Below are positions 5,963 through 63,482 of a DNA stretch of 64,000 nt, piece after piece. Numbering within the stretch: the stretch's first letter is position 1; the number at the start of each line of letters is the position of its first letter. A model generated the notes under the pieces. The model was not told the DNA's origin. It ran no database searches and saw only the letters and a list, made by a program, of their open reading frames with translations. The DNA comes from a virus. Position numbers and translations under genes: made by a program. Location: the IMG/VR virus record IMGVR_UViG_3300013101_002049, positions 62,001 through 126,000 of that record; one strand, written 5' to 3'.

Positions 5963-6019
5963 AGTAAAATTAAATAGTTATACAGATATAGCATATTGTT
6001 ATTTATTCCATTTTTATTC

Positions 6020-6047
6020 TAGCAAAATCCATAAAATATCCTATAAT
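6020..6047 (+). promoter_or_regulatory. Phage promoter, TAGCAA / TATAAT, 16-bp spacer
   Basis: TAGCAA at 6020-6025 and TATAAT at 6042-6047 are separated by 16 bases. Two other sites in the window (34509-34536 and 61440-61467) have the same two hexamers and the same spacing, and all three continue as TATAATATA. The flanks of this site and the second also share CTAGCAAAAT. The ATG of the homing endonuclease gene is 17 bases after the -10. The TATAAT fits a sigma70-type -10; TAGCAA is a poor match to TTGACA, which suggests a modified or phage-specific -35 element. Confidence 0.75.
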
Positions 6048-6063: not shown

Positions 6064-7992
6064 ATGAATACTAATAGCAATATGATAAAAACTAAAAAAA
6101 TTTGTCCAGTATGTGGTAAGGTTGTAAATAATCTGAATCAACATATTAGTATGATGTCCAAATCATGTAAAGCGCATGACGCTTATCAGTATGGCAGACT
6201 GGAGAGTTGTTTTAATAGTGAGTCCTCTTTATCTGAGATTTCTACTTTGTTAGGCATAGAAAGACATAGTCTAACCAAATTGTTTAAATTATATTTTGGC
6301 AATAATAAAACTGTAGGTAGGAATGAATTTAATAGAAGAAATAGTATATCTAATAAAAAAAGTGGTAAGTCTAATACACGTACTAAAACTTCAATATCAT
6401 ATGAAACGATCAAGAAATCTTTTGAGGTTGAGGGGTATAAACTATTATCTACTGAGTATATAAATAATCGCCAAAAATTAAAATATGTGTGTAAAAATGG
6501 GCATAGAGGTGAAATTAATTGGACTAAATGGCGAATTGGACAGCGTTGCGCTAAATGCTCAAAATATAGAAATAGATATAATATTAATTATATTAAAAAG
6601 TCTTTCGAATCTGAAGGGTATCTGCTTTTGTCGGATACTTATATAGATTCTGAAACACCTCTTGATTTTATCTGTCCAAATGGGCATAAGCATGCTATAT
6701 CATGGTCTGCTTGGAATAATCAGCATCAAAGGTGTGCTATATGTGCTGGGGTGTCCAGGACTAGTTATGAACAAATTAAAAGCTCTTTTGAAAAAGAGGG
6801 ATATGAATTATTAACAAAAGTTTATATAAATAATCGTCAAAAATTAGATTTTATATGTCCTAATAGTCATAAGTGCTCTATTACGTGGAGCGCTTGGTCG
6901 AAGGGAGGTCGTTGTAAAATTTGTAGTGGATTATATATCGATGAAGATGTAGTTATAAAAGATGTAACATCAAATGGATATATATTAATAGGAAAGTATA
7001 CTAATTCTCACATACCTATGCATTTAATTTGCCCAAATGGCCATGATTATTATGTGTCATGGCACAACTGGAGTTCTAAAGGGTATAGATGTCCCAGATG
7101 CACGAATGTAGGCACATCTTATCAGGAAACAGATTTATTATCTTGTATTAAATCAATTTATGATGGTGAAATAATAGATAGATCAAAAACTATAATATCT
7201 CCATATGAATTAGATATAGTAATTCCAGATAAAAAAATAGCCATAGAATACTGCGGTCTGTATTGGCATTCAGAATTATCTGGAAAAGATCGTAAGTACC
7301 ACCTAAGTAAGTTAGAACTTTGTAATGAAAAAGGTTATAGATTGATAACTATTTTTGAAGACGAATGGTTATCAAACAAAGATTTAGTAATTTCAAGACT
7401 TAAAAACATTTTATCTTTGGACAATGAAAGAATATATGCTCGTCAATGCACTGTTAAGGAAATCACTGTTACTGAAGCTAAAAAGTTTTGTAATGAAAAC
7501 CACCTTCAAGGTTATAATGGATCAAATATAAAATTAGGTTTATTTTATAATGATGAGTTGGTTTCGGTTATGACATTTTCTAAGCCTTCAATTTCTAAAG
7601 GGGGTAAGAATAGAAATCGAAATATATGGGAATTGCAGAGGTTTTGTTCTAAAAGAGGTATAACTGTTGTAGGAGGAGCTTCGAAGCTTTTAAAATATTT
7701 TGAAAGAACTTATGATTGGATTCAAATATTTTCTTATGCGGACCGCCGTTGGTCGAATGGGAATTTATATGAAAAATTAGGGTTTGATTTTGATAAGTAT
7801 ACTGTGTTAAATTACTGGTATTTTAAATCAAATAAGTTAGAAAGAATTCATAGGTTTGCTTTAAGAAAACAACCCTATGAATCTAAAAATAAAACTGAGT
7901 GGGAATTACGACAAGATGAGGGTTATAATAGAATATGGGATTGTGGTAATATCAAATATATAAAATATAAGAACAATATTAAGGACAAGTGA
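6064..7992 (+). CDS. Homing endonuclease: four zinc-ribbon repeats, Vsr-like PD-(D/E)XK nuclease, GNAT-like C-terminus
   Basis: 642 residues with AGGAGG before ATG. An N-terminal CxxC/H/C finger lies at 14-38. Four ~60-residue tandem repeats follow at about 112-350. Each has 'SFExEGYxLL', then C-x-N-x-H and a closing CxxC, so each probably binds zinc and DNA. A Vsr-like nuclease core is at about 352-450, with Asp384 and Glu395 in 'ELDIVIPDKKIAIEYCG' followed by 'YWHSE'. The last ~170 residues resemble an acetyltransferase-fold domain often attached to such nucleases ('LGLFYNDELVSVMTFSKP', 'YEKLGFDFDKY'). It interrupts a structural gene run and carries its own promoter. A role as a free-standing homing endonuclease is inferred from family and context. 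Confidence 0.8.
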   Translation: MNTNSNMIKTKKICPVCGKVVNNLNQHISMMSKSCKAHDAYQYGRLESCFNSESSLSEISTLLGIERHSLTKLFKLYFGNNKTVGRNEFNRRNSISNKKSGKSNTRTKTSISYETIKKSFEVEGYKLLSTEYINNRQKLKYVCKNGHRGEINWTKWRIGQRCAKCSKYRNRYNINYIKKSFESEGYLLLSDTYIDSETPLDFICPNGHKHAISWSAWNNQHQRCAICAGVSRTSYEQIKSSFEKEGYELLTKVYINNRQKLDFICPNSHKCSITWSAWSKGGRCKICSGLYIDEDVVIKDVTSNGYILIGKYTNSHIPMHLICPNGHDYYVSWHNWSSKGYRCPRCTNVGTSYQETDLLSCIKSIYDGEIIDRSKTIISPYELDIVIPDKKIAIEYCGLYWHSELSGKDRKYHLSKLELCNEKGYRLITIFEDEWLSNKDLVISRLKNILSLDNERIYARQCTVKEITVTEAKKFCNENHLQGYNGSNIKLGLFYNDELVSVMTFSKPSISKGGKNRNRNIWELQRFCSKRGITVVGGASKLLKYFERTYDWIQIFSYADRRWSNGNLYEKLGFDFDKYTVLNYWYFKSNKLERIHRFALRKQPYESKNKTEWELRQDEGYNRIWDCGNIKYIKYKNNIKDK

Positions 7993-8078: not shown

Positions 8079-8153
8079 ATGAATAATTGTATAAAATTTT
8101 ATAAAGAGTACAGTGGTCTATATTTTTATATGGATTGTTGTGCTCTTTTTTAA
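8079..8153 (+). CDS. Possible 24-residue ORF in the gap between homing nucleases
   Basis: ATG at 8079 follows GGAAATGGAG and opens a 24-codon frame ending in TAA. The product has two adjacent Cys near its end and no recognisable motif. The region 7993-8163 otherwise holds only a 14-base palindrome, TATAAAATTTTATA, at 8090-8103. It may be noise, a leader peptide or a remnant left by insertion of the neighbouring nuclease genes. Confidence 0.15.
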   Translation: MNNCIKFYKEYSGLYFYMDCCALF

Positions 8154-8163
8154 TGGTGGCAGT

Positions 8164-8718
8164 ATGCAAAGAGGTAAAAGAAGTATTCAATTAGATAAAA
8201 ATAAAAATAGTATAATTAATATGTATAATAATGGGTTAACTCAACAGGATATAGCTGATAAATTTGGTGTACATCAAGGTACTATAGGAAGACGTTTAAT
8301 TAAATGGGGAATCACTAGTGGCAGAAATTTGGATAATGATATTATTAAAGAGATGTATGTGAAAGATTGTTATACTTGTAGAGAGATAGCGGAAAGATTT
8401 AGGGTAAGTGTTTCGTGTATAAATAATAGATTACATACTATGAGTATATATCGTAAATGTATAAATAGAGATTTTGTGCGTACTGCACTTAGAGTGGATA
8501 TATCTAAAAATGTTTTAAAAGATTTATATTTCAATAAAAAGTTAACTATGAATAATATAGCTGAGAAGTTTAATTGTAGTAGATCTTCTATATACAGAAG
8601 GATGATGGAATATGGATTGAGACCACGGAATAAAGTAGAAGCCGCTAATAGGGGCATTAATCATCATAATTATAATAAACATATGTCTAAAAAGTCGAAA
8701 GACAAATTGATTAAGTAG
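8164..8718 (+). CDS. N-terminal half of an HTH homing endonuclease, ended by in-frame TAG
   Basis: I choose ATG 8164 over the GTG at 8113 because the first 17 residues of the longer form are hydrophobic and lie outside the conserved part. The 184-residue product has three tandem helix-turn-helix repeats of about 35 residues: 'GLTQQDIADKFGVHQGTI', 'YTCREIAERFRVSVSCI' and 'LTMNNIAEKFNCSRSSI'. Such HTH arrays normally position a C-terminal nuclease. That nuclease is present downstream in the same frame, directly after TAG 8716-8718. The protein as translated should bind DNA but not cut it, unless the stop is read through. Confidence 0.65.
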   Translation: MQRGKRSIQLDKNKNSIINMYNNGLTQQDIADKFGVHQGTIGRRLIKWGITSGRNLDNDIIKEMYVKDCYTCREIAERFRVSVSCINNRLHTMSIYRKCINRDFVRTALRVDISKNVLKDLYFNKKLTMNNIAEKFNCSRSSIYRRMMEYGLRPRNKVEAANRGINHHNYNKHMSKKSKDKLIK

Positions 8719-34495: not shown

Positions 34496-34508
34496 GTCAT
34501 TTTTTGTC

Positions 34509-34536
34509 TAGCAAAATACGAATTTTATTCTATAAT
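34509..34536 (+). promoter_or_regulatory. Phage promoter, TAGCAA / TATAAT, 16-bp spacer
   Basis: TAGCAA at 34509-34514 and TATAAT at 34531-34536 with 16 bases between. It has the same layout as 6020-6047 and 61440-61467, including TTCTATAATATA shared with the third site. It stands between the end of the structural genes and the ThyA-family gene, 36 bases before that ATG. It probably starts the replication and metabolism transcription unit. A short A/T hairpin with six T lies just upstream (34482-34505) but is weak. Confidence 0.78.
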
Positions 34537-34572: not shown

Positions 34573-35226
34573 ATGAAATTAGAGTTTATTGAGGCAACAA
34601 CTATTCCAGATAGTTGGTTTCAATCTGTTTATAAAATATTGGATTCTGGTAGAATTTATATAATAGATAGAGGCAGTTATGAAGGTCAACAGCGGTTAGA
34701 ATTCGATCATATTACTATTCGTATAAAATACCCCAATTCAAGACCCCTTCTTCCAGAATGTCCCCCTGGATGTGGTGTACCTAATCCTGCATCCAATGAT
34801 TATCTTGAGGAATATCTTCCTTATTTATTCACATCTTATAAACCAGCTAATACAATTTACACTTATGGTTCTTATCTTGAAAAACAAATAGAAAAAGTTA
34901 TAGAAATATTTTCTAAAGGCTATCATGGTACCAATCAGGCTTGTATGACTGTTGGTGATACTGATTCTATTTTTCAATCTGATCCAGCTTGTTTGAAGAT
35001 AATAGACTGTAGGGTTATAGACGATAAGTTAAATTTTATAATTTATTTTAGATCCAATGATTTATGGAATGGGTACCCAGTTAATATAGCTTCTTTACAG
35101 TTATTAAAGGAATATATTGCTGAGGCATCCGGATTGGAAGATGGTGAAATAATATATAATAGTAAAGGTCTTCATTTATATAATCATGTGTGGGATATTG
35201 CTAAAGTAGTGGTGAATCATGAATAG
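34573..35226 (+). CDS. thyA: ThyA-family thymidylate synthase / dNMP hydroxymethylase
   Basis: 217 residues, shorter than the ~264 of E. coli ThyA and closer to archaeal-type forms. The C-terminal half matches the family: catalytic Cys140 in 'DPACLKIIDCRV', the phosphate-binding 'FRSNDLWNGYPVNIASL' (Arg160, Ser161, Asp163), Asn171 at the position of E. coli Asn177, and 'GLHLYNH' (His201, Tyr203). The Asn suggests dUMP rather than dCMP as substrate. The product could be dTMP or a hydroxymethylated dUMP; sequence alone cannot decide. It opens the replication operon behind its own promoter and supplies DNA precursors. The N-terminal third is poorly conserved. Confidence 0.8.
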   Translation: MKLEFIEATTIPDSWFQSVYKILDSGRIYIIDRGSYEGQQRLEFDHITIRIKYPNSRPLLPECPPGCGVPNPASNDYLEEYLPYLFTSYKPANTIYTYGSYLEKQIEKVIEIFSKGYHGTNQACMTVGDTDSIFQSDPACLKIIDCRVIDDKLNFIIYFRSNDLWNGYPVNIASLQLLKEYIAEASGLEDGEIIYNSKGLHLYNHVWDIAKVVVNHE

Positions 35227-44243: not shown

Positions 44244-46691
44244 ATGGATAAGGGAAAGAAAATTAGAGTTTTTGCGTATTGTGATTCACCAACTTGTGCT
44301 ACAGGATTTGGTACAGTTTCAAGGAATATATTCGAAGGTTTGTATAACACAGGTCGTTACGATATTGATGTGTTTGGAATTAATTATTGGGGTGATCCTC
44401 ATAATTTTCCGTATCGCATTTGGCCAGCAGGTACAAATAAAGATAGAGACCCTTATGGTAGGCAAAAAGCAGTAAGTATGATACCTCGTATGCAATTTGA
44501 TCTATTATTTTTGTTACAGGATTCATTTATTATGGATTTTTTGCCCGTTTTGTTGCCTCATATGAAGGAAAATAGCTCTAAATCTTTTAGATCAATACTA
44601 TATTTTCCGGTGGATTCTGTTTTGAAAGAGAAGTGGGGTAAAAATATTTCGGATGCTGACACTATCGTTGCTTATTCTGAATTTGGAAAGCAAGAAGCTT
44701 TGAAAGTTATGCCTAATCATGAGGATATGAAAGTTATACCGCATGGTGTTAATACTCGTGAATTTTATCCACTACCTAAGCATGAAGTTGAAGCTTTTCG
44801 TAAAGAATATTTTAAGTCAGAAGCAGATAAATTTATTATTACAAATCTTAATCGTAATCAACAACGTAAGGATGTTCCAAGAACTATTCAAGCTTTTAAA
44901 GAGTTTAGAAAACAAGTTCCTGAATCTATTTTGTATCTTCATATGGCTATGCAAGATCAGGGATGGGATTTACCTGAGATATGTAGACAGATTGGACTGG
45001 ATATTACTAAGGATGTTATTTTTCCGCAGAATTTTGGGCCTAATCAAGGTTATCCTCGTGAAATTGTTAATGCATTATATAATTCAAGTGACGTCATTGT
45101 AAGTACAACGCTTGGCGAAGGTTTTGGCCTTTGTTTAAGCCCCGATACTAATGTTTATACATCTAATGGTATTAAGACGATGGACGAATTAACAATAAAT
45201 GACGCTGTATTATCGTCTAATGGTGAATATAATAATATCGAAGCTATATTATCTAGGGACTACAACGATTATTTGTATGAAATAACTACTTGGTTAAGTA
45301 ATATACCTATAAAAGCATCGTCAGATCACGGTTTCCTAGTATACAATGATGAGTTTGTTTGGAAGAAAGCTTCACAATTAAAAATAGGTGATAAATTGCT
45401 TTTTCCGTGTAATTATGCGTATAAAAATGAGAATACTACTATTGATGTGCTAGATACTATTTATACATTTTTGAATAAAAGGCAAAAGGATAATATTGTA
45501 GTTAAAAATGGCCAGGTTCGTATACAATCGAATTTTAAACAAGAAGAAAATTTTATACCGAAATATATAAATATTGATAAAGATTTTTGTAAATTGATGG
45601 GTTTGTATTTGGCAGAAGGGTCTTTAAGTTCTGTTAAGATGGATTCTGTAACATTTTCTTTTAATAAAAATGAAAAGGAGTCTATCGAGTTTGTTATCGC
45701 TAAAATGAAAGACGTTTTTGGGCTAGATTTTTATGAACTCAAAGATAAACAGTTGAATTATAATGGATATTCTATAAGATTTTATTCTTCCGTAGTTGCA
45801 TATTTATTTTATGCATTATGTGGCAAAGGTGCTAGAACAAAGAAAATTTCAACTATATTATTAAATTTAGATAAGCCAATGTTAATTAAATTAGTAGAAG
45901 GTGTGTATATTGGTGATGGTAGTTATAGCGAGTCTCAATATGAAATATCTTTCTCTACAACTTCTAGAGATATAGCTTATAATTTACGTTTGATTTTGTC
46001 ACGTCTTGGTATATTATCATCTGTACGTACTTCTAGAGTAGAATATAAAGTGAATGTTAGTGGTGTGTCGCGAGAAAATTTGCAAAAACTATTTGGTATG
46101 AATGTTGTTAAGGTTGATAGAACAAGAGCAAATGAGCGGGCTTCTATAAGTGATGAGTATTTAATATTACCGGTAAAGAATATTGATAAAGTACATTATA
46201 AAGGAAAACTTATAGATATTCAAGTAGCAAATACTAATGATTTTGTTGCTGAAAATGTTATTGTTCATAATTCGTGGATTGAAGCCATGGCTACTAAAGT
46301 ACCAATTGTTATGCCAAATAATACAGCTATGTCGGAATTTATTACTGAGGACAGGGGGTATCTTGTTAATAGCGGCAGCAATCCAAGTTTATGGACAGTA
46401 ATTCCACATGATAATGAAGTTATGCGTCCATTAGTAGATGTTGATGATATGGTGAAAACTCTAGTTCATATTTATAATAATAGAGATGAAGCACGTACTA
46501 AAGCTGAAAATGCTTATAAATGGATTGTTAATGAGATGGATTGGCAGCGGGGTATTGTACCGCGATGGGTTGATGTTTTTGACGAAGCTTATGAATTGAT
46601 TCAGAGAGAGGATAAAGAGCATAGTGAGGATGTAGAAGCACTTGTTGACCAATTAGGTAAGAAAAAAATTATTGAGTCGGAGGAATTATAA
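44244..46691 (+). CDS. GT4-type glycosyltransferase interrupted by an intein
   Basis: 815 residues. The N-extein (1-296) is a GT-B fold: 'RVFAYCDSPTCATGFGTVSR', 'VIPHGVNTREFYPLP', and the conserved C-terminal-domain motif 'VSTTLGEGFGL'. The intein occupies 297-676. The C-extein resumes at 'SWIEAMATKVPIVMPN', so splicing restores 'EGFGLSWIEAMA', the donor-binding E-x7-E motif. The spliced enzyme would be 435 residues, normal for GT4. AGGAGGAG precedes ATG. It opens the glycan island and should move a nucleotide-activated sugar to an unknown acceptor. Without splicing the donor site would be destroyed. Confidence 0.88.
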   Translation: MDKGKKIRVFAYCDSPTCATGFGTVSRNIFEGLYNTGRYDIDVFGINYWGDPHNFPYRIWPAGTNKDRDPYGRQKAVSMIPRMQFDLLFLLQDSFIMDFLPVLLPHMKENSSKSFRSILYFPVDSVLKEKWGKNISDADTIVAYSEFGKQEALKVMPNHEDMKVIPHGVNTREFYPLPKHEVEAFRKEYFKSEADKFIITNLNRNQQRKDVPRTIQAFKEFRKQVPESILYLHMAMQDQGWDLPEICRQIGLDITKDVIFPQNFGPNQGYPREIVNALYNSSDVIVSTTLGEGFGLCLSPDTNVYTSNGIKTMDELTINDAVLSSNGEYNNIEAILSRDYNDYLYEITTWLSNIPIKASSDHGFLVYNDEFVWKKASQLKIGDKLLFPCNYAYKNENTTIDVLDTIYTFLNKRQKDNIVVKNGQVRIQSNFKQEENFIPKYINIDKDFCKLMGLYLAEGSLSSVKMDSVTFSFNKNEKESIEFVIAKMKDVFGLDFYELKDKQLNYNGYSIRFYSSVVAYLFYALCGKGARTKKISTILLNLDKPMLIKLVEGVYIGDGSYSESQYEISFSTTSRDIAYNLRLILSRLGILSSVRTSRVEYKVNVSGVSRENLQKLFGMNVVKVDRTRANERASISDEYLILPVKNIDKVHYKGKLIDIQVANTNDFVAENVIVHNSWIEAMATKVPIVMPNNTAMSEFITEDRGYLVNSGSNPSLWTVIPHDNEVMRPLVDVDDMVKTLVHIYNNRDEARTKAENAYKWIVNEMDWQRGIVPRWVDVFDEAYELIQREDKEHSEDVEALVDQLGKKKIIESEEL
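45132..46271 (+). mobile_element. 380-residue intein with LAGLIDADG endonuclease, in a glycosyltransferase
   Basis: The intein begins with Cys (TGT 45132) in 'CLSPDTNVYTSNGIKTMDEL' (block A). It has 'KASSDHGFLVY' (block B, with S-S-D-H in place of T-x-x-H) and ends in 'ENVIVHN' with the penultimate His and terminal Asn; the next residue is Ser. Two LAGLIDADG-like helices are present ('LMGLYLAEGSL' and 'LVEGVYIGDGSY'), so the homing endonuclease may be active. All splice-junction residues are intact. Confidence 0.92.
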
Positions 46692-47810
46692 ATGGAGATA
46701 CGGGGTATTAAATATGTAGGCCCTATATTTGATGTGTCTGGTTATGGGCAAGCAGCTAGAGGGTATGCTTTGTCATTACATAAATTGGGAATTCCTTTGA
46801 CTATTGATTCTGTATCTTTTGAAGAGGGGTTGGCTGATTTTGGAGAAACTAGTCGTATTTTAGCTCCTCTTGTAGATAAAAATATAGATTATAATATAGT
46901 AATTATCCATCTAACTGCTAATTTATTTTGTTCTAAGGCTGAACCTGGTAAAATGAATATAGGTTATTTTGTGTGGGAAACCGATAAAGTTCATGAGGAA
47001 TGGGTGGAAGAGGCCAATAAAAGTGTAAGTTTTGTGATGACTGCTTCTCAATGGGGAGCAGATATATTTAGAAAATCTGGTATAACTGTGCCGGTGGCTG
47101 CTATTCCTCATGGGATTGATGCTGATGAATTTGTTGATGTTGACCCATATACTGTTGCTGGTGTAAAACAGAATGCTTATAAATTTTATGGAATATTTCA
47201 ATTTACTGAACGTAAGCACCCGATGGCATTAATTAAATCATATTGGAGTGCTTTTCAAAATAATGAAAATGTAGCTCTTATTTTGAAAACGTATCGTAAT
47301 GGATTTGCGGATAGTGAAAAAGAGGCTATACGAGCAACAATAAAAAGATTAAAAAAAGTAACTAATATGCCTATATACCCACCTATATATTTAATATCTG
47401 AACGTTTGGATAGATCTGAACTATTAGGACTTCATAAAACATGTGATTGTTTGGTTCATTTGGATCGTGGGGAAGGTTTTGGTTTGGTGCCTTTTGAAGC
47501 TGGTGTATGCGGCAATCCTATATTAATTACTGGATGGGGCGGTGCACTAGAATATGCTAAGGAAGATAATAGTTATTTAGTTAATTATACTCTTACGCCA
47601 GTATTTGGCATGCCTTGGTCACCATGGTATTCTGGAAATCAGTTATGGGCTGAACCGGATTGTGGCCACGCGATTGAATTACTGCGTGAAATTTATAATA
47701 ATCAGGGTGAAGCACGTATCCGTGGTGAGAAACTGAAACAATATATTATTGATAATTTTAGTTGGGAAAATGTTGGTAGTAAAATAATAGAAACAATAAA
47801 GTCTTTGTAG
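46692..47810 (+). CDS. GT4-type glycosyltransferase
   Basis: 372 residues; starts directly after the previous stop, behind GGAGG. The N-terminal domain has 'DVSGYGQAARGYALSLHKLG'. The linker region has 'AAIPHGIDADEF'. The C-terminal domain has 'CLVHLDRGEGFGLVPFEAGV' and 'ILITGWGGALEYAKE', the GT4 E-x7-E donor site. It belongs to the same family as the spliced product of the upstream gene but is not a close copy. The acceptor is unknown. It continues the glycan island with 10-base spacing to the next gene. Confidence 0.85.
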   Translation: MEIRGIKYVGPIFDVSGYGQAARGYALSLHKLGIPLTIDSVSFEEGLADFGETSRILAPLVDKNIDYNIVIIHLTANLFCSKAEPGKMNIGYFVWETDKVHEEWVEEANKSVSFVMTASQWGADIFRKSGITVPVAAIPHGIDADEFVDVDPYTVAGVKQNAYKFYGIFQFTERKHPMALIKSYWSAFQNNENVALILKTYRNGFADSEKEAIRATIKRLKKVTNMPIYPPIYLISERLDRSELLGLHKTCDCLVHLDRGEGFGLVPFEAGVCGNPILITGWGGALEYAKEDNSYLVNYTLTPVFGMPWSPWYSGNQLWAEPDCGHAIELLREIYNNQGEARIRGEKLKQYIIDNFSWENVGSKIIETIKSL

Positions 47811-47820
47811 GAGATTAGAA

Positions 47821-48738
47821 ATGAATGTAATAATGAGACCAGTTTGGAATAGACCTGAGATGCTTTATTTATCAATGGAAGCTGAGCTGGAAGCTCGTAA
47901 GCACCATGAGTTTTCGAATGATTTACTAACAGTTTTTGTTTTGGATCATGGGTATAATGAAAAAGTATTAGAAATAGTTGAGAGTTATCCTGAGCCAAAA
48001 AAAATTATTAAAAGACAAAAGCGCTTAGGCTTAACCGTTAATATACTTGAAGGTATGAAAGAATCATTTACACATGCTGATGATTACATTATTTATATAG
48101 AAGATGATATGGTGGTGCACAAGACTTATTTTCAGTTTTTGGATGTACTTATGAATTTAGTAAAACCAGAAGAATATTCTGTGATTATAGGTCATAGTAA
48201 AGGTATTCAGAACAAAGGCCGCAAAAATTTTGATCCTCCTAATGTGGATTTAAATGTGGTGGTGAAAGACCATGTGTATGCAGCTTTCGCTAGTTTGATA
48301 AGAAAAGAATTTTTTAATAATTATATTTTACCTTGTATTGGACCGACGTATTATAAAAATTTTGGTACGAGAGATAAATTTGTCACTGCTTTGGGAACTA
48401 AATATCAACAAGATAAGCGATTTAAATATAAAGGTAAATCTATGCATGCTCATAATGAGCAAGCTGGTTTAATTAATCGTTTGGTTGATGTAGCATTAAT
48501 TGAAGAAGGTAAATGTACTTTAAGACCTGTTGCTACAAGAACTATACATATAGGAGTGTATGGAAAAAATCGACCTGGCAATATACCTGGGAAAGATTTT
48601 AACGAACGGCTATCATTACTTAGACATGCGGTAGAAAACAATAAGTTGTATGATTTAACTAGATCTAAACAATATGATGACTATGAAGGATTTTCGCCGA
48701 GATTAGATGAATGGGATGGGACTTTATATGTCAAATAG
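47821..48738 (+). CDS. GT-A type glycosyltransferase (family 2-like)
   Basis: 305 residues after AGGAG. The N-terminal fold is nucleotide-diphospho-sugar transferase-like, with 'RPVWNRPEMLYLSMEAELEA', a central 'GLTVNILEGMKESF' and the metal-binding 'YIIYIEDDMVVHKTYF' (EDD in place of DxD). A later segment 'YAAFASLIRKEFF' fits the acceptor side. The C-terminal ~90 residues include His-rich 'KSMHAHNEQAG'. It should add a sugar with metal-dependent inverting chemistry. It overlaps the next gene by 11 bases. Confidence 0.75.
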   Translation: MNVIMRPVWNRPEMLYLSMEAELEARKHHEFSNDLLTVFVLDHGYNEKVLEIVESYPEPKKIIKRQKRLGLTVNILEGMKESFTHADDYIIYIEDDMVVHKTYFQFLDVLMNLVKPEEYSVIIGHSKGIQNKGRKNFDPPNVDLNVVVKDHVYAAFASLIRKEFFNNYILPCIGPTYYKNFGTRDKFVTALGTKYQQDKRFKYKGKSMHAHNEQAGLINRLVDVALIEEGKCTLRPVATRTIHIGVYGKNRPGNIPGKDFNERLSLLRHAVENNKLYDLTRSKQYDDYEGFSPRLDEWDGTLYVK

Positions 48739-49600
48739 AATACTTTTTTGTACTGGTGAAGGCGTTGGAAATGTTATTCAAACTATACCTGTACTTCGTA
48801 CTTTAAGAGAATCACTAGGGGTTAAAATAGATTTTTGGTATGTTTATGGTACTTTTCAATTGCCTAAGATAATTCCATATGTTGATAAATGGATAGTTGG
48901 CAATCAGATTCGAAACATGGATATGAATAGATATGTTGGCGCTGTATCTACTAAATGGACAAGGAAGCATATTAAAAATTTACCTATTCCTATTCTAAAT
49001 AAGATTTCTGATTTAAGTATGGTAAGATCAGAAGTCGATTGTTATATGGATATTGCACGAAGTTTAAAAGTAAACGATGAGGATTTATTATGGTGGGGTA
49101 AATGTAATTATAATAGATCTGACGAATTTTATGATGTAGTGATACATAACGGTTATAATTTTAAAGGATCTTCTGATTGGAAGTTAAAAAGTTATCCAAG
49201 ATATAAAGAAGTGGTGAAATTATTATCTGGAGATGTATCTTTATGTTCAGTGGGCAGTAAAGGTGAACATATTAAAGGTACGATAGATAAAACCGGTTTG
49301 AATATTCTAGATAGTTTAGGCATAATTAAAAATGCTAAAGTATTTTTGGGTAATGATAGCGGATTATATCATTGTGCGAATGCATTAGATGTGCCAAATT
49401 TAGTGATATTTACTTATACGTCTACAGAAAAAAATTATGACAAAAGATTTCATAGAAAAGCTAAAATAATATGCAGGAAAGATTTAGAATGTAGATGGTG
49501 CCAATGTGAACCAAGATTTAAAACCTGTAAGACAAGAGAATGTAGAAATATAGAACCTAAATTGATAGTAGATGTTGTATTGGAGAAATTAAATGGATAA
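48728..49600 (+). CDS. Family 9 glycosyltransferase (heptosyltransferase-like)
   Basis: 290 residues from ATG 48728; an in-frame ATG at 48707 lies further inside the upstream gene. 'ILFCTGEGVGNVIQTIPVL' matches the GT9 N-terminal glycine loop. 'NAKVFLGNDSGLYHCANALD' with 'VPNLVIF' matches the donor-binding region of ADP-heptose:LPS heptosyltransferases. A Cys cluster near the end ('CRKDLECRWCQCEPRFKTC') could bind zinc. The substrate could be a heptose, which would suit the heptose-kinase-like genes at 59130-60853. Confidence 0.78.
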   Translation: MSNRILFCTGEGVGNVIQTIPVLRTLRESLGVKIDFWYVYGTFQLPKIIPYVDKWIVGNQIRNMDMNRYVGAVSTKWTRKHIKNLPIPILNKISDLSMVRSEVDCYMDIARSLKVNDEDLLWWGKCNYNRSDEFYDVVIHNGYNFKGSSDWKLKSYPRYKEVVKLLSGDVSLCSVGSKGEHIKGTIDKTGLNILDSLGIIKNAKVFLGNDSGLYHCANALDVPNLVIFTYTSTEKNYDKRFHRKAKIICRKDLECRWCQCEPRFKTCKTRECRNIEPKLIVDVVLEKLNG

Positions 49601-50273
49601 ATGTTTGGGTTTTGGTGGACTTGGTGATTGTTTTATAGTAGGATTAAAATTGATGGAATATCCTAATGAATATGTATATGTGCATATAGATAATTCTAAA
49701 TCAAGATTAACATCTTCTATGTATTTAATGGAACATTTAGGTATACCTGCTATTGGGAAGGTAGTAAAAAATATTAAACGGTGGTGGTATACAAACCATA
49801 ATCAATTTGATAAATGTTTTAATGTGTTTGCTAATGGGTATATTGATATACCAAAAAGGGATTACCATTGGGAACCTTGTAGAGATGAAGGATATAAAAA
49901 TCCATATAGAAAAGAATTAAAAACGAAAACAGATTTTATAGCAGTACAAATTAATTCTGGTGGGCAGAGAAGTTATAAATATAAGCCAATAATTGAATAT
50001 GTTTATGCAAATTATGATAGAAATAAAATACTATGGTTTGGCACTGATACAGAATTTCATGCTGAATATGGAACAAATTATTGTGGGAAAATAGATTTTA
50101 TTTCAGCGTTAGAAAAAATATCTGAATGTAAATATTTTGTTGGTTTTAATAGTGTGTTACTTTATTGGTCATTGTGGAATAAATTAGATTGTTTTTTATT
50201 TACAGATCATCAAGGTAAAGAGGATTTACGAATACATAAAGAGTGGAAAAAACATTTGGAGTTTGATATATGA
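49593..50273 (+). CDS. Probable divergent GT-B glycosyltransferase
   Basis: 226 residues. The N-terminus 'CLGFGGLGDCFIVGLKLMEY' resembles the glycine loop of GT9 enzymes, and 'ISECKYFVGFNSVLLYWSLW' resembles their donor-site region without the usual 'DSG'. It is short for GT9 (about 340), and the acceptor domain is reduced. It overlaps neighbours by 8 and 4 bases. I call it glycosyltransferase-like from fold pattern and context, with no certain catalytic residue. Confidence 0.5.
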   Translation: MDKCLGFGGLGDCFIVGLKLMEYPNEYVYVHIDNSKSRLTSSMYLMEHLGIPAIGKVVKNIKRWWYTNHNQFDKCFNVFANGYIDIPKRDYHWEPCRDEGYKNPYRKELKTKTDFIAVQINSGGQRSYKYKPIIEYVYANYDRNKILWFGTDTEFHAEYGTNYCGKIDFISALEKISECKYFVGFNSVLLYWSLWNKLDCFLFTDHQGKEDLRIHKEWKKHLEFDI

Positions 50274-50905
50274 AAATTCTTATAATAGGCTTTCAACGAG
50301 GTGGTACTACATTACTTAGGCGATTGATGCATAATCATCCGGATGTACAATGTATGATTCATGAGAAGCGCATTTTAAATCGTAAAGATAATGGGGAATC
50401 GTTATTAAATGATTTAGACATAGATAAAACTGGAAATTGGGGTGAGAAAGTACCGTGGAATTCTTCAGATGGATCTGAAATAATAATTTATGGTAAGAAA
50501 TGGTTAGAAGAATTCGGGGATGAAGCCAGGATAGTTCATATAGTAAGACATCCGGTTGATAGTGGGTTGTCAAATCAAAGACTTGGTTGGATGCAACTAA
50601 ACAGAGCTGTGGATAATGCTCAAAAATCTATACCTTTAGTAATAAACGCTTTTAAAAATGATAATAGATATTTGGCTATTGCTTTTGAAGATTTAGTTAC
50701 TAATCCAGAAAAAGTATTGAAAAAAATATTTAAGTTTTGCGTACTTAATGATGACGGGGCTTCCAGAGATATAAGTAATTTAAAAAAGAAAGATTTAAGA
50801 TACTATGATGGTATAAAAGCTAGTAAAGCATATGAATATAAAAAGGTAGATAATTTGAATTGTAAAATACCTGATTATAGTAAAATACTGGAGTTAATAA
50901 AATGA
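50270..50905 (+). CDS. PAPS-dependent sulfotransferase
   Basis: 211 residues. The 5'-phosphosulfate-binding loop is 'GFQRGGTTLLRRLMHNHP' at 7-24. The catalytic-type Lys is in 'GNWGEKVPWNS' (Lys60). The 3'-phosphate-binding strand is 'ARIVHIVRHPVDSGLSNQR' at 86-104, and 'YLAIAFEDLVTNPEKVLKKI' is the usual conserved helix. It should transfer sulfate from PAPS to a hydroxyl, most likely on a sugar given six glycosyltransferases around it. Overlaps are ATGA at both ends. No PAPS-making gene is in the window, so donor would come from the host or from elsewhere in the genome. Confidence 0.85.
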   Translation: MKILIIGFQRGGTTLLRRLMHNHPDVQCMIHEKRILNRKDNGESLLNDLDIDKTGNWGEKVPWNSSDGSEIIIYGKKWLEEFGDEARIVHIVRHPVDSGLSNQRLGWMQLNRAVDNAQKSIPLVINAFKNDNRYLAIAFEDLVTNPEKVLKKIFKFCVLNDDGASRDISNLKKKDLRYYDGIKASKAYEYKKVDNLNCKIPDYSKILELIK

Positions 50906-51879
50906 AGTATTTAATGTTGCGTGGCCAGGTACCAATTGATCGTGATCCAAAAGAGATAGTATTTGAATATTTAGAAGACATTGATGATGTTTGGACACAA
51001 TTATTTTATGCTATATTAGATAAGGATGATGAAGGTGAATTATGGTATTGGGGTGGTACACGAGAAAAAAAATTTACAGCGAATTTTGTAGAGCGCTGGG
51101 TACCAAATTATGACCAATACAAGACGAGTTTTATTCCTGATGTAATATTTTGTCGTGGGGGATTTCCAGAATATCATGTAGTTCTTCGAAGATTTCCTAA
51201 CTCTATAAAGATTTATTATGGGGCTGGTAGAAGATTTTTACCCCAACCCGGTTTTTATGATTATGATATCATTTTGCAAGATTCACCAGAACAAGTACTG
51301 GAATGTCGAGAAAAATTTCCTAAAGCATTGACTACATTATTTATTAAGCCAGCGGCTGATAATATATTTTATCCGATGCCTCATATTAAAAAAGAATATG
51401 ATATTTGTTTTCCTGCTAATGCGGCTCAAACTTTTAAAGGTCATAAATTTGTGTATGACACTGTGCCAAGTGATATGACATTGTTAAATCTTGGTAATCG
51501 AAATGATAGATATAAGTACCCAGCCAATGTTACTTCTTATAGAGTGTTAAGACCCAAAATGGCTGAAAATATAGCTAAATGTAAAGTGGGTATAGTAGCA
51601 GTTCAAAGTGAAATAGATTCATGCCCTAGAGTAATTCCAGAAATGTTAGCATGCGGCATTCCTATTGTCGCACTTGATAGAGTCCGGTTTTGGCGAGATA
51701 AATATATAGTCACTAGTGTTACTGGTGAATTAACTACGTTGAATAAATTCTGGATAAAAGTAAGATTTGTACTTGATAATTTAGAAGAGTATGTACCGAG
51801 AAAATATTATGAAAATAATTTATCACTTGACTATGCTGCTAGATTTATAAAGGAGAAGATAAATGAAGTTAGCATTTAA
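50902..51879 (+). CDS. Glycosyltransferase-like protein (GT-B, group 1)
   Basis: 325 residues. A GT-B C-terminal domain is suggested by 'MAENIAKCKVGIVAVQSEID' and 'SCPRVIPEMLACGIPIVALD', where 'PRVIPEMLACGIPIV' is the donor-loop helix of group-1 enzymes. The N-terminal part ('PDVIFCRGGFPEYHVVLRRF', 'IKIYYGAGRRFLP') is a Rossmann-like acceptor domain. It overlaps both neighbours by 4 and 17 bases. The sugar and acceptor are unknown. Confidence 0.72.
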   Translation: MKYLMLRGQVPIDRDPKEIVFEYLEDIDDVWTQLFYAILDKDDEGELWYWGGTREKKFTANFVERWVPNYDQYKTSFIPDVIFCRGGFPEYHVVLRRFPNSIKIYYGAGRRFLPQPGFYDYDIILQDSPEQVLECREKFPKALTTLFIKPAADNIFYPMPHIKKEYDICFPANAAQTFKGHKFVYDTVPSDMTLLNLGNRNDRYKYPANVTSYRVLRPKMAENIAKCKVGIVAVQSEIDSCPRVIPEMLACGIPIVALDRVRFWRDKYIVTSVTGELTTLNKFWIKVRFVLDNLEEYVPRKYYENNLSLDYAARFIKEKINEVSI

Positions 51880-52813
51880 CGGATTAAATAGCGGATTAGG
51901 TAATAATGGTGGATCAAGAACAATTATTAAATGTTGTGAAGTTTTAAATAGTTTGGGACATAGTTGTGATATAATTGCTAATGTAGATAATTTTTCATGG
52001 TTTGATCATAAACCAGTTATAAATTATTTACCAACCAATTTGGATGCCATTATTTCAATAGCTGCTGTAGATGTACCACTTACTTTAAGAATAGCAGTCC
52101 CAGTTAAAGCTTGGTATATTAGAGGACATGAATCATGGGCTAATCCAGAGCATCTTTTGGTGGATTATTATAAAAATGAAAATATTTTGAATGTAGTAAA
52201 TTCAAATGGACTTAAACAATTATTGTCTACGTGGGGCGCTGATTCCTATGTCATTTATCAAGGCATTGATTTTGATTGGTGGGAAGATAGAAAGTTACGT
52301 AAGGATGGTATAATACGTATAGGATGTTTATACGGATCAAAACTTACTAAACGTTGGCAAGATTTTGTTAAACTTCATAGCATACTTGGTGATGAAAAAT
52401 ATGAATACGTATCTATTGGAGACGTTAAACCTAAATCGAATTTTATAAAAAAATCATGGGCTAATATAAATCATGATGAACTTTGTAATGTTTATAGTTC
52501 TTGTGATATATGGTTTGCACCTACTGAACTAGAAGGTCTTCATAATGTTCCTATTGAGGCTGCTCTATGTGGATGTTTGATAGTGTGTGGTGATGAGCCT
52601 ATGAATGGGATGATATATGATTATGCTTTTCCTAATAATACCGCAATGGTTTATGACAGGAAAGACATTAAGCATGCTGCTGAACTTATTAAAAATCCTA
52701 ATTGGGAATTAATTGGTAGAATGCAAAAACATATTAAAGAAAATATAGGATCACGCGAGACTAATATAAAGAAACTTGTGAAGTTATTGGAGATGACTGA
52801 TGAAACTATATAA
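51863..52813 (+). CDS. GT4-type glycosyltransferase
   Basis: 316 residues. 'LGNNGGSRTIIKCCEVLNSL' is the N-terminal glycine-loop helix. 'SYVIYQGIDFDWWED' links the domains. 'CDIWFAPTELEGLHNVPIEA' with 'ALCGCLIVCGDEP' is the E-x7-E donor-binding region. The last helix ends in the next gene, with a 14-base overlap. It is probably one of several enzymes that build a multi-sugar chain. Confidence 0.8.
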   Translation: MKLAFNGLNSGLGNNGGSRTIIKCCEVLNSLGHSCDIIANVDNFSWFDHKPVINYLPTNLDAIISIAAVDVPLTLRIAVPVKAWYIRGHESWANPEHLLVDYYKNENILNVVNSNGLKQLLSTWGADSYVIYQGIDFDWWEDRKLRKDGIIRIGCLYGSKLTKRWQDFVKLHSILGDEKYEYVSIGDVKPKSNFIKKSWANINHDELCNVYSSCDIWFAPTELEGLHNVPIEAALCGCLIVCGDEPMNGMIYDYAFPNNTAMVYDRKDIKHAAELIKNPNWELIGRMQKHIKENIGSRETNIKKLVKLLEMTDETI

Positions 52814-53369
52814 ACATAAAGATTATGATAATTATAAAGCAGCCCAAATAGATAAAAATGTAAGAAAGTTAAAAAATATATGGGTTAAACCGAAAGAGAT
52901 ATCTTTAGTGGTCGGACATATAAATAAATACATCCCTAATGCTAAATTTGGTATATGTCATGGTGTGAGAAATGCGTGGGAAGTTAAACAGTTTAGGAAA
53001 TTATTAAATATAAATGTTATTGGCACTGATATAGCACCATCGGTATCTAAATTTGAACATACACTAGAATGGGATTTTCATGAGGTAAAAGAAGAATGGG
53101 TTGGTAATGTGGATTTTATATATAGTAATTCTTTCGATCATTCTTATGACCCTGGTATGTGTTTAGATAAATGGATGAGTTGCTTAACTAAAGATGGTAT
53201 ATGTTATATACATTGGATGAAAACTAATGAAACTAAAATTGATGCTGCTGATTGTTTTGCAGCTTATCAAAAGGAATATCGAAAGATGTTTAATAAAAAA
53301 TATAAGGTTATAGCTGAATTACCTAGTGCGGGGGGAACTCGTGTTATTTTTGCTATAAAGTCTAAATAA
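52800..53369 (+). CDS. Class I SAM-dependent methyltransferase
   Basis: 189 residues. A Rossmann-type order is seen: 'NAKFGICHGVRNAWEVKQFR' takes the place of motif I, 'INVIGTDIAPSVSKFEHTLE' is motif II with the acidic residue binding SAM ribose, 'WVGNVDFIYSNSFDHS' is motif IV, and 'LTKDGICYIHWM' is the following strand. Motif I lacks the full GxGxG and has 'CHGVR'. Given its neighbours a sugar is the likely target, for example O-methylation of a glycan. It has a 17-base gap to the next gene. Confidence 0.65.
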   Translation: MKLYKHKDYDNYKAAQIDKNVRKLKNIWVKPKEISLVVGHINKYIPNAKFGICHGVRNAWEVKQFRKLLNINVIGTDIAPSVSKFEHTLEWDFHEVKEEWVGNVDFIYSNSFDHSYDPGMCLDKWMSCLTKDGICYIHWMKTNETKIDAADCFAAYQKEYRKMFNKKYKVIAELPSAGGTRVIFAIKSK

Positions 53370-53386
53370 AGAGGTAGGATTTAAAG

Positions 53387-54118
53387 ATGTGGGATCAATT
53401 AAGAGATATAAAGATGACAAGAAGTATAGATAATCTTGAAGAAGGCTGTTTAACTTTCGCTAAGACAGAAAAGCATTTACAAAAACTTAAAAATATAAAT
53501 TTAAAGATTAGTGTTATGGTTCCTCATGATATTGATTCTTCTGGTTTGCCTTCTAGCGTAAATATATATAAAGTAAGAAAGGGTGAAAATCTTAAAAATG
53601 TTTTTATACGTATCCATAATAGAATAAATAAATATGTAGATCCAAAAGAGAATATTATAAGTTCTAAGGCAATTATTGATCCAACCGCGATAATTGGAAT
53701 ACCTGGAAATAATATAACCAAAATGGCTAATGGTCGAATAATTAATATGAAACATATGGGTAATGTTATAATCGAAGACTATGTTGAGGTACAGGCTTTA
53801 TCAATTGTGCATAGATCTGTTTTTGATTCAACAATTATAAGAAAAAATGCACAAATTTTTGCAAAAGTTAACATTGGACATAATTGTGATATAGGAGAAA
53901 GCACTATTATTTGCCCAGGAAGTTTATTAGCTGGTGGAACTAAGGTTGGAAGTAATTGTTATATATGGCAAGGTGTTATAACTAGAAGTAATATATCTAT
54001 ATGTGATAATGTGATAATTGGAGCTGGGTCTTTAGTGTTAGATGATATTAAAAAACCTGGAGTTTATTTTGGAAGTCCGGTTAAATATATAAAACCTTAT
54101 GATGAGGAAATACGATGA
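53387..54118 (+). CDS. LpxD-like left-handed beta-helix acyltransferase
   Basis: 243 residues. An N-terminal alpha/beta domain of about 85 residues precedes hexapeptide repeats from about 90 on: 'AIIDPTAIIGIPG', 'GNVIIEDYVEV', 'AQIFAKVNIGHNCDIGES', 'TKVGSNCYIWQGVITRSNIS'. The order of domains and 'VNIGHNCDIG' (candidate catalytic His) recall LpxD, which N-acylates UDP-acyl-GlcN. The ending 'KPGVYFGSPVKYIKP' is typical of sugar acyltransferases. It probably acylates an amino sugar made by the neighbouring enzymes. It overlaps the next gene by 4 bases. Confidence 0.75.
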   Translation: MWDQLRDIKMTRSIDNLEEGCLTFAKTEKHLQKLKNINLKISVMVPHDIDSSGLPSSVNIYKVRKGENLKNVFIRIHNRINKYVDPKENIISSKAIIDPTAIIGIPGNNITKMANGRIINMKHMGNVIIEDYVEVQALSIVHRSVFDSTIIRKNAQIFAKVNIGHNCDIGESTIICPGSLLAGGTKVGSNCYIWQGVITRSNISICDNVIIGAGSLVLDDIKKPGVYFGSPVKYIKPYDEEIR

Positions 54119-54591
54119 ATATAATTGGTAATAAATTTGAACATGGAGAAGAATTTGAAATAGGTTATTTTAATGTAATTGGTAATAATGTTAAAGTGGG
54201 TAGTTATGTAAAGATTGGCCATCATTGTATAATTGAGGATAATGTAGAAATTGCGGATAACGTTATACTTCAAGGAAATATTAAAATAGCTGAAGGAGCA
54301 GTTATTGGTAATAATTGCGTATTAAAGCACGGTACTATTTTAACAAATAAAACAACCCTTAAAGATGACGTTTTTATGGGGCCTAATACGATTACACTTG
54401 GAGGCACACATGAAAGAAAAACTGAGCATGGTACTATCATAGGAAATAGATGTTATATTGGTGGAGGTACTCAAATAGCCGCAAATAAAAAATTATGTGA
54501 TGATGTAACGGTCGGAGCCCTTTCATTTGTTAATAGAAATATAGTTAAACCTGGACTATATGTTGGTATTCCTGTAAGGAGTCTTCGATGA
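54115..54591 (+). CDS. Hexapeptide-repeat sugar O/N-acetyltransferase
   Basis: 158 residues almost wholly of hexapeptide repeats: 'FNVIGNNVKVGSYVKIGHH', 'NVEIADNVILQGNIKIAEGA', 'VIGNNCVLKHGTILTN'. The loop 'TLGGTHERKTEHGTIIG' and the ending 'KPGLYVGIPVRSL' fit acetyltransferases acting on sugar nucleotides. It probably works as a trimer with acetyl-CoA. It resembles the WbpD-like protein at 58643 in fold but not in its N-terminal sequence. Confidence 0.78.
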   Translation: MNIIGNKFEHGEEFEIGYFNVIGNNVKVGSYVKIGHHCIIEDNVEIADNVILQGNIKIAEGAVIGNNCVLKHGTILTNKTTLKDDVFMGPNTITLGGTHERKTEHGTIIGNRCYIGGGTQIAANKKLCDDVTVGALSFVNRNIVKPGLYVGIPVRSLR

Positions 54592-55517
54592 AAATACTAT
54601 TATTAAATCCTAATCGCATTAAACGTCATAATTGGGGGCATCAATTATTTAAAAACGAATTATCTAATTACCATGATGTTACCTATTATGGAAGCGGATT
54701 TTCTGGTTATAATAAAAATCTAACAGTATCAGAAGTAATAAAACAATTTAATATACCTTTTGATTTAATTTTAACTTATGAAGCTAAATGGAGTTCATTT
54801 GCACGTGGTTTGAAAAATGTGGGAGATATTCCAAAAGCACATATTCAAATTGATTATTCAAAAGCTACGAAAACATGGAATGGTGCGGCTAAAAAGGAAA
54901 ATGTTGAAAGGTTTTTAAATAAAAATAAATATGATATATTTTTTGTAACCTCGACTTCAAATCAAAGTGCTTTTAAAAAAAGTTTAAAAACTGATAAGGT
55001 GTTTGTTTTGCCGTTTTCGGTAGATACAACGATATATAAAGATCAAAATCTTAAAAGAGATATCGATGTTATGGCAACTTATAGTACACATATTGGAGTA
55101 TATCCTAATAGAAAGAATATACAGAATTTGATTAAGAAAATGAATTTAAAATCTTTTACTTCACGCGTACTTCATAGAGCTTATGTGAAAGCTATTAATC
55201 GGTCTAAAATTTTCATTATTAGTAATAATTTTAATAAACGATTGAGTATGAAATATACTGAAGCTATGGCTTGTGGAGCTATGGTTTTAGCGGATGAACC
55301 AGAAGATTTAGAATTACAAGGATTTAAAAATGGTAAACATTTAGTATTATATAAAGATTTAAAGGATATGAAGAAAAAAATATCATATTATCTTAAACAT
55401 GATGAGGAACGCCAAAAAATAGCCAATCAGGGAATGAAATTTGTACAGAATAATCATAGTTGTAAAAAGAGAGTGGAACAATTCACTGAAATAATTAAAC
55501 GGGAGCTTAACATATGA
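54588..55517 (+). CDS. CgeB-like glycosyltransferase
   Basis: 309 residues. The N-terminal half has 'PFDLILTYEAKWSSFARGLK' and 'IPKAHIQIDYSKATKTWNG'. The C-terminal GT-B half has 'VFVLPFSVDTTIYKDQN', 'RSKIFIISNNFNKRLSMKYT' and 'EAMACGAMVLADEPEDLELQ', the pattern of CgeB/group-1 enzymes. It starts within the previous stop (ATGA) and its own stop overlaps ATG 55514 in the same way, which helps define the next gene's start. Sugar and acceptor are unknown. Confidence 0.75.
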   Translation: MKILLLNPNRIKRHNWGHQLFKNELSNYHDVTYYGSGFSGYNKNLTVSEVIKQFNIPFDLILTYEAKWSSFARGLKNVGDIPKAHIQIDYSKATKTWNGAAKKENVERFLNKNKYDIFFVTSTSNQSAFKKSLKTDKVFVLPFSVDTTIYKDQNLKRDIDVMATYSTHIGVYPNRKNIQNLIKKMNLKSFTSRVLHRAYVKAINRSKIFIISNNFNKRLSMKYTEAMACGAMVLADEPEDLELQGFKNGKHLVLYKDLKDMKKKISYYLKHDEERQKIANQGMKFVQNNHSCKKRVEQFTEIIKRELNI

Positions 55518-56081: not shown

Positions 56082-56083
56082 TA

Positions 56084-57770: not shown

Positions 57771-57777
57771 TAATAAA

Positions 57778-61416: not shown

Positions 61417-61439
61417 CTGAAAAAAATGATAAATTAACC

Positions 61440-61467
61440 TAGCAATATTGAAATAATATTCTATAAT
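61440..61467 (+). promoter_or_regulatory. Phage promoter, TAGCAA / TATAAT, 16-bp spacer
   Basis: TAGCAA (61440-61445) and TATAAT (61462-61467), 16 bases apart, inside the same extended context as the other two (CTAGCAA ... TTCTATAATATA). The dnaX-type gene starts 30 bases downstream behind GGAGAAGGG. It should drive the second replication unit separately from the glycan island. Confidence 0.78.
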
Positions 61468-61496: not shown

Positions 61497-63482
61497 ATGA
61501 TAAAGAAGAGAAGGAAAGGTGATTTAAATGTTGCATATCGACCTTACCGCATTGATGAGGTATTTGGTCATGATCGTATAAAAAATATGATCTCGGGATA
61601 TTTAGAAAATGCTACATTACCACATGCCTCATTGTTTACTGGACCAGCAGGTTGTGTGGATTGCGATACTGAATTTTTTACTGGTTATGGTTGGAAAAAG
61701 ATTTCCGAATACACTGATGGTGATTTAGTAATGCAGTATGATACTGCTACTAAGATAGCATCGTTAGTTAAACCGTTTAGGTATATAAAGAAGCCAGTAG
61801 ATAAATTATTTCATTTTAAAACTAAATATGGATTGGATCAGTGTTTAAGTAAAGATCATAGGGTATTATATTCATTACGAAAAAGTGGTTTACATACTGA
61901 TAGTTTTGAGTCAATAATAAACACACACAATACTAATAAGTATGGTTTTAATGGTAAATTTTTAACATCGTTTAATTTAGATGCATCTGCTGGTATTGAT
62001 ATGTGTTCCGCGGATTTACGTGTAATGGTTATGATAATTGCTGATGCAACTATTGACCCTAATAGAACAAAGTGTTGTCTTAATTTAAAAAAGAAAAGAA
62101 AAATAGAACGTGCTCATAAATTATTAAACGAGGCAGGTATTGAATATTCTACATTAACCCAGGGTGATTATACACGATTTTATTTTATACCTCCAATTAG
62201 AACTAAGGAATTTGATAGTTACTTTTATGGTTGTAATGCCAATCAATTAGAGACTATATCATCTGAGGTGGTTTTGTGGGATGGTGATCAAAATAATATT
62301 TTCTTTACAACATCTAAACAAAGTGCAGATTTTATACAATATGCATTTACTGCTTCTGGTTATAGAGCTTCGATAAATATTGATGATAGGCGAATAAATA
62401 ATAGGTCTATTACTTACAGGGTTATCAGATCTACTAGTACTGTTTGCGGATTTAGTACTGTGGCCGATAGAAAGACTGTTATTTCTGAATATACACCAAT
62501 AGATGGTTATCAATATTGTTTTACAGTTCCATCATCTTATTTAGTACTTAGAAGAAATAATTGCATATTTATAACTGGTAATTGTGGTAAAACGACTTTT
62601 GCTAGGATAGTTGCTTTAGGTTTGAATTGTGAAACAGGTGTTACATCTAATCCATGTTGTGAATGTTCTACATGTAAAAGTATTATAGCATTGAATAGTC
62701 TTTCAGTATTAGAGTTAGATGGTGCAAGAACAGGAAATGTTGATACTGTCAAACGTGTATTAAATGATTTACCCGCGGCTCCCTTTGGTAATGATAGAGT
62801 GCGGGTATTAATTCTTGATGAGGCGCATAAACTTAGTGACGCCGCAGAGGATTCCCTCCTAAAGTTTTTAGAAGACACACCTGCTCATGTGTATATTATA
62901 TTATGTACCAATGAGCCTCAAAAACTTAAAGAAGCCATTCGACAGCGTTGTAAAATGATTCAATTTAGTAGATTGGAGCGCAAACCTATATATGAGTTAT
63001 TAGAACAAGTTGCGCAGTTTGAAGGTATGAATTATAACTCAAAAATTCTTAATAAAATTACTGAGGAATGCGAAGGGACACCGCGTATAGCGTTGTCTTT
63101 TTTACAGCAGATTAATGCTGAAGGTAGTTGGACGAATGAAGCGGTTGGTTTTATTTTAAGTGCTGGCCTCGAAGCAGATCAACAAGAAGTTATAGATATG
63201 TGTAGATTGTTAGTTAAGAATCATGGCCAATGGCAACCAGTTCAAAATATTTTTTTGAAGTTGGTTAAAAAAATTCCAGTAGAAACTATGCGTATAGCGG
63301 CTACTGGATTTTTATCTGGATGTTTTAAGAGATCGACTTCCATTGAAGATGCAACTCGTTACGCTAAATGTGTAGAGTTAGTTGGGCAGTTATATTATGG
63401 ACCTAAGCCCGAGCATATGTTATTGATGAAATTGTTTCGGAGTTATAATATTATACATTCGGGGAAGGATATATGGACATAA
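61497..63482 (+). CDS. dnaX: Clamp loader (DnaX gamma/tau-like) with an intein in its P-loop
   Basis: 661 residues. The N-extein is 1-52 ('YRPYRIDEVFGHDRIKNMIS', ending in 'FTGPAG'); the intein is 53-362; the C-extein begins 'CGKTTFARIVALGL'. Splicing makes the Walker A GPAGCGKTT and a 351-residue protein. A zinc module ('CETGVTSNPCCECSTCKS'), Walker B 'VLILDEAHKLS', sensor 1 'LCTNEP' and the Arg finger/sensor 2 region 'EGTPRIALSFL' follow. It should load the clamp made at 35594. It lacks the long tau C-terminus. Unspliced protein cannot bind ATP. Confidence 0.9.
   Translation: MIKKRRKGDLNVAYRPYRIDEVFGHDRIKNMISGYLENATLPHASLFTGPAGCVDCDTEFFTGYGWKKISEYTDGDLVMQYDTATKIASLVKPFRYIKKPVDKLFHFKTKYGLDQCLSKDHRVLYSLRKSGLHTDSFESIINTHNTNKYGFNGKFLTSFNLDASAGIDMCSADLRVMVMIIADATIDPNRTKCCLNLKKKRKIERAHKLLNEAGIEYSTLTQGDYTRFYFIPPIRTKEFDSYFYGCNANQLETISSEVVLWDGDQNNIFFTTSKQSADFIQYAFTASGYRASINIDDRRINNRSITYRVIRSTSTVCGFSTVADRKTVISEYTPIDGYQYCFTVPSSYLVLRRNNCIFITGNCGKTTFARIVALGLNCETGVTSNPCCECSTCKSIIALNSLSVLELDGARTGNVDTVKRVLNDLPAAPFGNDRVRVLILDEAHKLSDAAEDSLLKFLEDTPAHVYIILCTNEPQKLKEAIRQRCKMIQFSRLERKPIYELLEQVAQFEGMNYNSKILNKITEECEGTPRIALSFLQQINAEGSWTNEAVGFILSAGLEADQQEVIDMCRLLVKNHGQWQPVQNIFLKLVKKIPVETMRIAATGFLSGCFKRSTSIEDATRYAKCVELVGQLYYGPKPEHMLLMKLFRSYNIIHSGKDIWT
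61653..62582 (+). mobile_element. 310-residue intein inside the clamp-loader Walker A motif
   Basis: The intein starts at Cys (TGT 61653) in 'CVDCDTEFFTGYGWKKISEY'. Block B is 'LSKDHRVLY'. The end is 'NCIFITGN' followed by Cys of the C-extein. The penultimate residue is Gly instead of His, as in some phage P-loop inteins. LAGLIDADG-like helices ('RVMVMIIADATI' and 'EVVLWDGDQNN') suggest an endonuclease that may be degenerate. Confidence 0.88.

Follow-up and report, generated by a model that had tools for sequence, protein, structure and literature searches.

Here we describe a class of putative promoters, CTAGCA-N17-TATAAT, found in a 64,000-nucleotide (nt) window of viral DNA, the whole stretch analysed, which corresponds to positions 62001-126000 of the 150,128-bp virus record IMGVR_UViG_3300013101_002049. 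Judging from its conservation across a whole clade, its bias toward the coding strand and intergenic DNA, its invariant spacing and a conserved purine at the predicted transcription start, this is almost certainly a genuine promoter class that dozens of related phages, all uncultured, have in common, and the proposal of a phage promoter class made in an initial annotation of the window is therefore strongly supported. In this clade of large uncultured phages, promoters of the CTAGCA type predominate. In the window, the pattern TAGCAA-N16-TATAAT occurs exactly at 6020-6047, 34509-34536 and 61440-61467, always on the + strand, and the elements of the three sites are the following:

6019..6024, + strand: -35 box CTAGCA of promoter 1 (exact match; box taken from the alignment of 56 sites)
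6037..6041, + strand: TATCC element of promoter 1 (consensus TATTC), directly 5' of the -10
6042..6047, + strand: -10 TATAAT of promoter 1 (exact match; predicted +1 at about 6054, from the conserved purine)
34508..34513, + strand: -35 box CTAGCA of promoter 2
34526..34530, + strand: TATTC element of promoter 2
34531..34536, + strand: -10 TATAAT of promoter 2 (predicted +1 at about 34543)
61439..61444, + strand: -35 box CTAGCA of promoter 3
61457..61461, + strand: TATTC element of promoter 3
61462..61467, + strand: -10 TATAAT of promoter 3 (predicted +1 at about 61474)

All three window sites are intergenic, and the next ATGs downstream, at 6064, 34573 and 61497, begin 17, 37 and 30 bases after the end of the site, so that the earlier description of three identical motifs in intergenic gaps, each followed by a gene start, is borne out. 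Only 0.04 exact matches were expected in shuffled sequences, which never reached the three observed. When two mismatches were allowed, the window gave 18 matches against 29.6 expected, that is no excess, and the promoter signal is therefore confined to near-perfect sites. The full record contains six exact copies, six forward and none reverse (the backward control gave 0), and a seventh, variant copy at record position 148820; all seven are on the coding strand. About 4.3% of the record is intergenic and six of the seven sites fall there (P about 4e-8), so the motif is not equally frequent in coding DNA. One of the six exact copies, at record position 133674, is located within the RNase HII gene, where it encodes the KLSSKKRELFYN stretch of the protein; this copy may be partly explained by the protein motif.

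The motif is also widespread in relatives of this phage. Two strict forms of it match 38 and 53 stretches of IMG/VR, compared with 2 for a scrambled-box control of the form that gave 53, while TTGACA in the same frame matches 17, one per contig. In the first 30 records all copies lie on a single strand within each record; nearly all copies in relatives fall between genes and have a gene start downstream, and many of the motif-bearing records are collinear with this phage. As a test independent of the motif, 19 ThyA loci were fetched by protein similarity (38-86% identity) together with their upstream DNA: the exact motif was present in 12, the form CTAGTAA in one and neither in six, so that the promoter is kept upstream of homologues of the thymidylate synthase-like gene in 13 of the 19 phage loci. 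Record G043 carries CTAGTAA at both its sites. Moreover, in an unsupervised count of intergenic k-mers, CTAGCAA (55 occurrences vs 2 on the opposite strand) and TTCTATAA (61 vs 3) were both at the top of the list, and the CTAGCA motif was the only strongly strand-biased one recovered. A literature search found no paper describing a CTAGCA promoter motif. It could be argued that these sites are coincidental AT-rich words, or words maintained by coding constraint, as the absence of an excess at two mismatches and the copy encoding part of RNase HII would suggest. For the 133674 copy alone such an explanation may hold, but for the whole class it is refuted by the shuffled and scrambled controls (0.04 vs 3 and 2 vs 53) and by the conservation upstream of ThyA, obtained without selection for the motif, and we consider its probability negligible.

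A consensus was derived by aligning 56 non-redundant sites from the record and related phages. Bases fixed in the search patterns are uninformative and conservation was read from the free positions only: A8 is found in 94% of sites, A15 in 82%, T19 in 100%, A20 in 96% and T35 in 78%, positions 19 and 20 being free only in the search pattern that gave 53 stretches. The full unit is T-CTAGCAaA...TATTC-TATAAT-ATA, with a variable stretch between its two parts and an A at position 15; the longer motif can be written (T)CTAGCAAAAT-N8-TATTCTATAATATA, and the left part of the 56-site consensus is T-CTAGCAAA. The core of this motif had been recognized in the initial annotation, which overlooked the TATTC element and the four sites beyond the window. 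Given the extended motif, CTAGCA followed by a 17-bp spacer is a better reading of the -35 hexamer than TAGCAA and a spacer of 16; the TATAAT assigned earlier is thus retained, while its -35 register was one base off. The spacing CTAGCA-N17-TATAAT is present in every site found by pattern, where it was fixed by the search, and the motif-bearing loci fetched through ThyA also have 17. A purine occupies position 36, exactly 7 nt after the -10, in 92% of the 56 sites. Transcripts initiated by sigma70 would start about 7 bases after the -10, and we infer that transcription starts at this purine. The sites thus share with the sigma70 housekeeping promoter (TTGACA-N17-TATAAT) a perfect -10, a 17-bp spacer, inside the 16-18 bp range, and a +1 purine about 7 nt past the -10. 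They differ from it in the near-invariant TATTC preceding the -10 and in the -35, where TTGACA is replaced by CTAGCA, different at three of six positions.

To evaluate how common the classical type is in the same phages, we searched intergenic DNA for TTGACA-N16-18-TANNNT. The motif-bearing records (123 kb of intergenic DNA) gave only 2 sense and 2 antisense matches of this type, against 75 sense and 12 antisense for CTAGCA or CTAGTA. In G042, a syntenic relative without CTAGCAA promoters (11 kb intergenic), TTGACA-type matches were 5 sense and 0 antisense, and in G046 (2.3 kb intergenic) 2 sense and 0 antisense. TTGACA promoters are nearly absent from the motif-bearing phages, and what has occurred in this clade is a wholesale swap of the -35 rather than the addition of a promoter type.

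The genes following the three window promoters are:

6064..7992, + strand: 642-aa composite endonuclease-like protein, after promoter 1
34573..35226, + strand: thymidylate synthase-like protein (Pfam Thymidylat_synt), after promoter 2
61497..63482, + strand: 661-aa protein with a clamp-loader (DnaX-like) domain (Pfam DNA_pol3_delta2), after promoter 3

The names thyA and dnaX given earlier to the second and third genes hold as Pfam family matches, while "homing endonuclease" fits the first only in part, its product being a composite protein that matches HNH/homing endonuclease in PHROG and CapR, REase_MTES_1575 and Mom-like in Pfam. Further promoters in this phage serve small genes near its right end, and in relatives the downstream genes encode ThyA, the clamp loader, ClpP, a cold-shock protein, endonuclease-like proteins and a C92-family peptidase, some of them named by sequence reading. 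The capsid operon has, instead of a CTAGCA promoter, a conserved CTAACC element beside a -10-like sequence. From the gene content and from this different element at the capsid operon, an early or middle timing of the CTAGCA promoters, as previously suggested, is plausible. We also observed that TWACTAACC, a -10-like sequence and TAGAGG stand together upstream of the capsid operon and at other places in late regions (L007, about 380-415, and about 15 relatives); the TWACTAACC element may represent a late promoter class. About 10-40 nt past the promoter at record position 140972, and before the gene start, there is a hairpin with a T run (AGGTCAGTGGAGTTTATCTTCGCTGACCTTTTTT; L011:15472-15571, record 140972-141071), and this terminator-like leader could be an attenuator.

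Concerning the factor that recognizes CTAGCA, the overall best explanation, to which we assign about an even chance, is that these are sigma70-family promoters of the host polymerase with a CTAGCA -35. Host (cellular) RNA polymerase with a sigma70-family factor would initiate at them, sigma region 2 melting the perfect TATAAT while, at the usual distance of 17 bp, CTAGCA would take the place of TTGACA as the -35 contact, and the promoters would drive genes for replication, nucleotide metabolism, endonucleases and chaperones together with small early-type genes. The reader would be the holoenzyme of the host itself, which would belong to a bacterial lineage with a shifted -35 preference of its sigma. 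We judge this the likeliest reader, just short of an even chance, because even the early-type genes have no TTGACA-type promoter left: with TTGACA promoters nearly absent, CTAGCA should be needed also by the first genes expressed in an infection, and this early dependence favours either a host sigma that prefers CTAGCA or a factor carried by the virion. Several points weigh against a host sigma. Most bacteria have a highly conserved region 4.2 in the primary sigma, and a change of preference at three bases would therefore be unusual; the motif was itself the criterion by which the motif-bearing records were chosen; and no host genome with a CTAGCA promoter consensus was found. The strict motif was also scanned in 84,980 cellular species, with 5 matches, one of which is a viral contig binned with Lokiarchaeota; however, the same strict form with TTGACA matched 0 of 149 genomes, and by this yardstick the cellular scan has no power for or against a host sigma. 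The Lokiarchaeota bin itself was discarded as a candidate, as it holds only three motif copies, two of them on its viral contig (L051). Cultured phages did not provide a link to a host either: the conserved capsid-type protein had no match among them, and the terminase is only about 30% identical to those of Bacillus and Microcystis phages.

Host sigma preference and a phage factor, the two causes mentioned in the initial annotation, both remain, in this order of probability, a phage-encoded co-factor being almost as likely as the host sigma. It is possible, though we give it clearly less than an even chance, that host sigma is appropriated, continuing to read the -10 while a phage protein replaces or redirects its region 4 and reads CTAGCA. 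The CTAGTAA at both promoters of G043 is a concerted change of the kind that drift in a single factor would produce, and G042, the syntenic relative without the box, uses TTGACA. The closest known analogue for a reading by a phage factor would be the design of T4 middle promoters, which depend on sigma appropriation by AsiA and MotA and likewise combine a strict host-type -10, a box replacing the -35 and similar downstream genes (PMC2988021). In T4, however, the MotA box TGCTT is centred at -30, 12 +/- 1 bp from the -10 (PMC2988021), whereas here CTAGCA is at the exact -35 position, 17 bp away. Neither MotA nor AsiA had a Pfam match among the proteins scanned, which represent about half of the open reading frames (ORFs) of a record that lacks the terminase-portal region of its relatives, and within the same scope no phage RNA polymerase was found among the large proteins, a 7531-aa ORF being too long for the scan. 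In addition, no parallel TTGACA early class was found from which such a factor could first be made, unless the virion brings it into the cell. A divergent sigma factor encoded by the phage and reading both CTAGCA and TATAAT appears improbable. Family models can miss phage sigma factors because of their divergence, and the records are fragments; on the other hand, phage sigma factors usually change the -10 too, and no Sigma70_r2 or r4 match above the cut-off was obtained in 12 and 24 records, which are incomplete. One report (PMC8948821) describes phages of the phiEco32 and 7-11 type as encoding a sigma-like factor that redirects host polymerase; redirection to phage promoters would be shared if a phage factor acts here, but no sigma-like protein was detected in the present records. 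Two candidates were rejected: a multi-helix-turn-helix gene (window 8113-8718), whose weak sigma-region-4-like matches are below the cut-off and which only three records possess, and a small protein, Myb-like by eye, which has no Pfam match and is also present in motif-free G042. A NusG-like gene (Pfam NusG) is present in all 16 searched motif-bearing relatives that cover its locus and absent from six motif-free records, of which only G042 is collinear there. Because proteins of the NusG type function in elongation, the gene is not proposed as the reader of the -35. In relatives it adjoins the terminase genes (L146:8084-8569, G001 and 15 others). With somewhat less than an even chance, the clade may possess a factor unlike MotA, AsiA or known sigmas that re-specifies the -35 from TTGACA to CTAGCA or CTAGTA at non-structural genes and is possibly carried in the virion, or its hosts may be a bacterial lineage with a CTAGCA housekeeping sigma.

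Other features of this phage and its relatives were observed. The record seems incomplete, as the terminase, portal, ClpP and cold-shock genes that relatives carry beside the capsid operon were not found in it. In L007 (3616-3695) and homologues, a leader, probably of the major capsid gene by position and conservation only, contains a hairpin GGAT..GCAC/GTGC..ATCC with apparent compensatory changes between phages, and the leader of a second gene of the structural region (L007:1973-2093 and homologues) keeps the blocks AAGGAAATGG and GAGGTTGG across diverged relatives. A single open frame of 7531 aa (record 28607-51202; L008, L009) may encode a tail protein, for instance the tape measure. At window 46692-60853, a long series of genes of the glycosyltransferase, sulfotransferase, epimerase, PfkB and cytidylyltransferase types suggests that the phage makes or remodels surface sugars. 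Inteins are present in the glycosyltransferase, ribonucleotide reductase and RNase HII of this phage and, by sequence reading, in the ThyA and terminase of a relative, at the following loci:

window 44244-46691; L011:2248-5391; L011:6903-8609; L093; L146:9551-13597: intein loci

With its 29 bp the motif is a highly specific signature of these large uncultured phages as a clade, and it marks the genes that they transcribe jointly. The swap from TTGACA to CTAGCA among syntenic phages amounts to a natural experiment on how the -35 is recognized. It predicts either a phage transcription factor of a new kind or a lineage of bacteria whose housekeeping sigma has been re-specified, so that the unusual reading of these promoters would lie either with the hosts or with the phages themselves.
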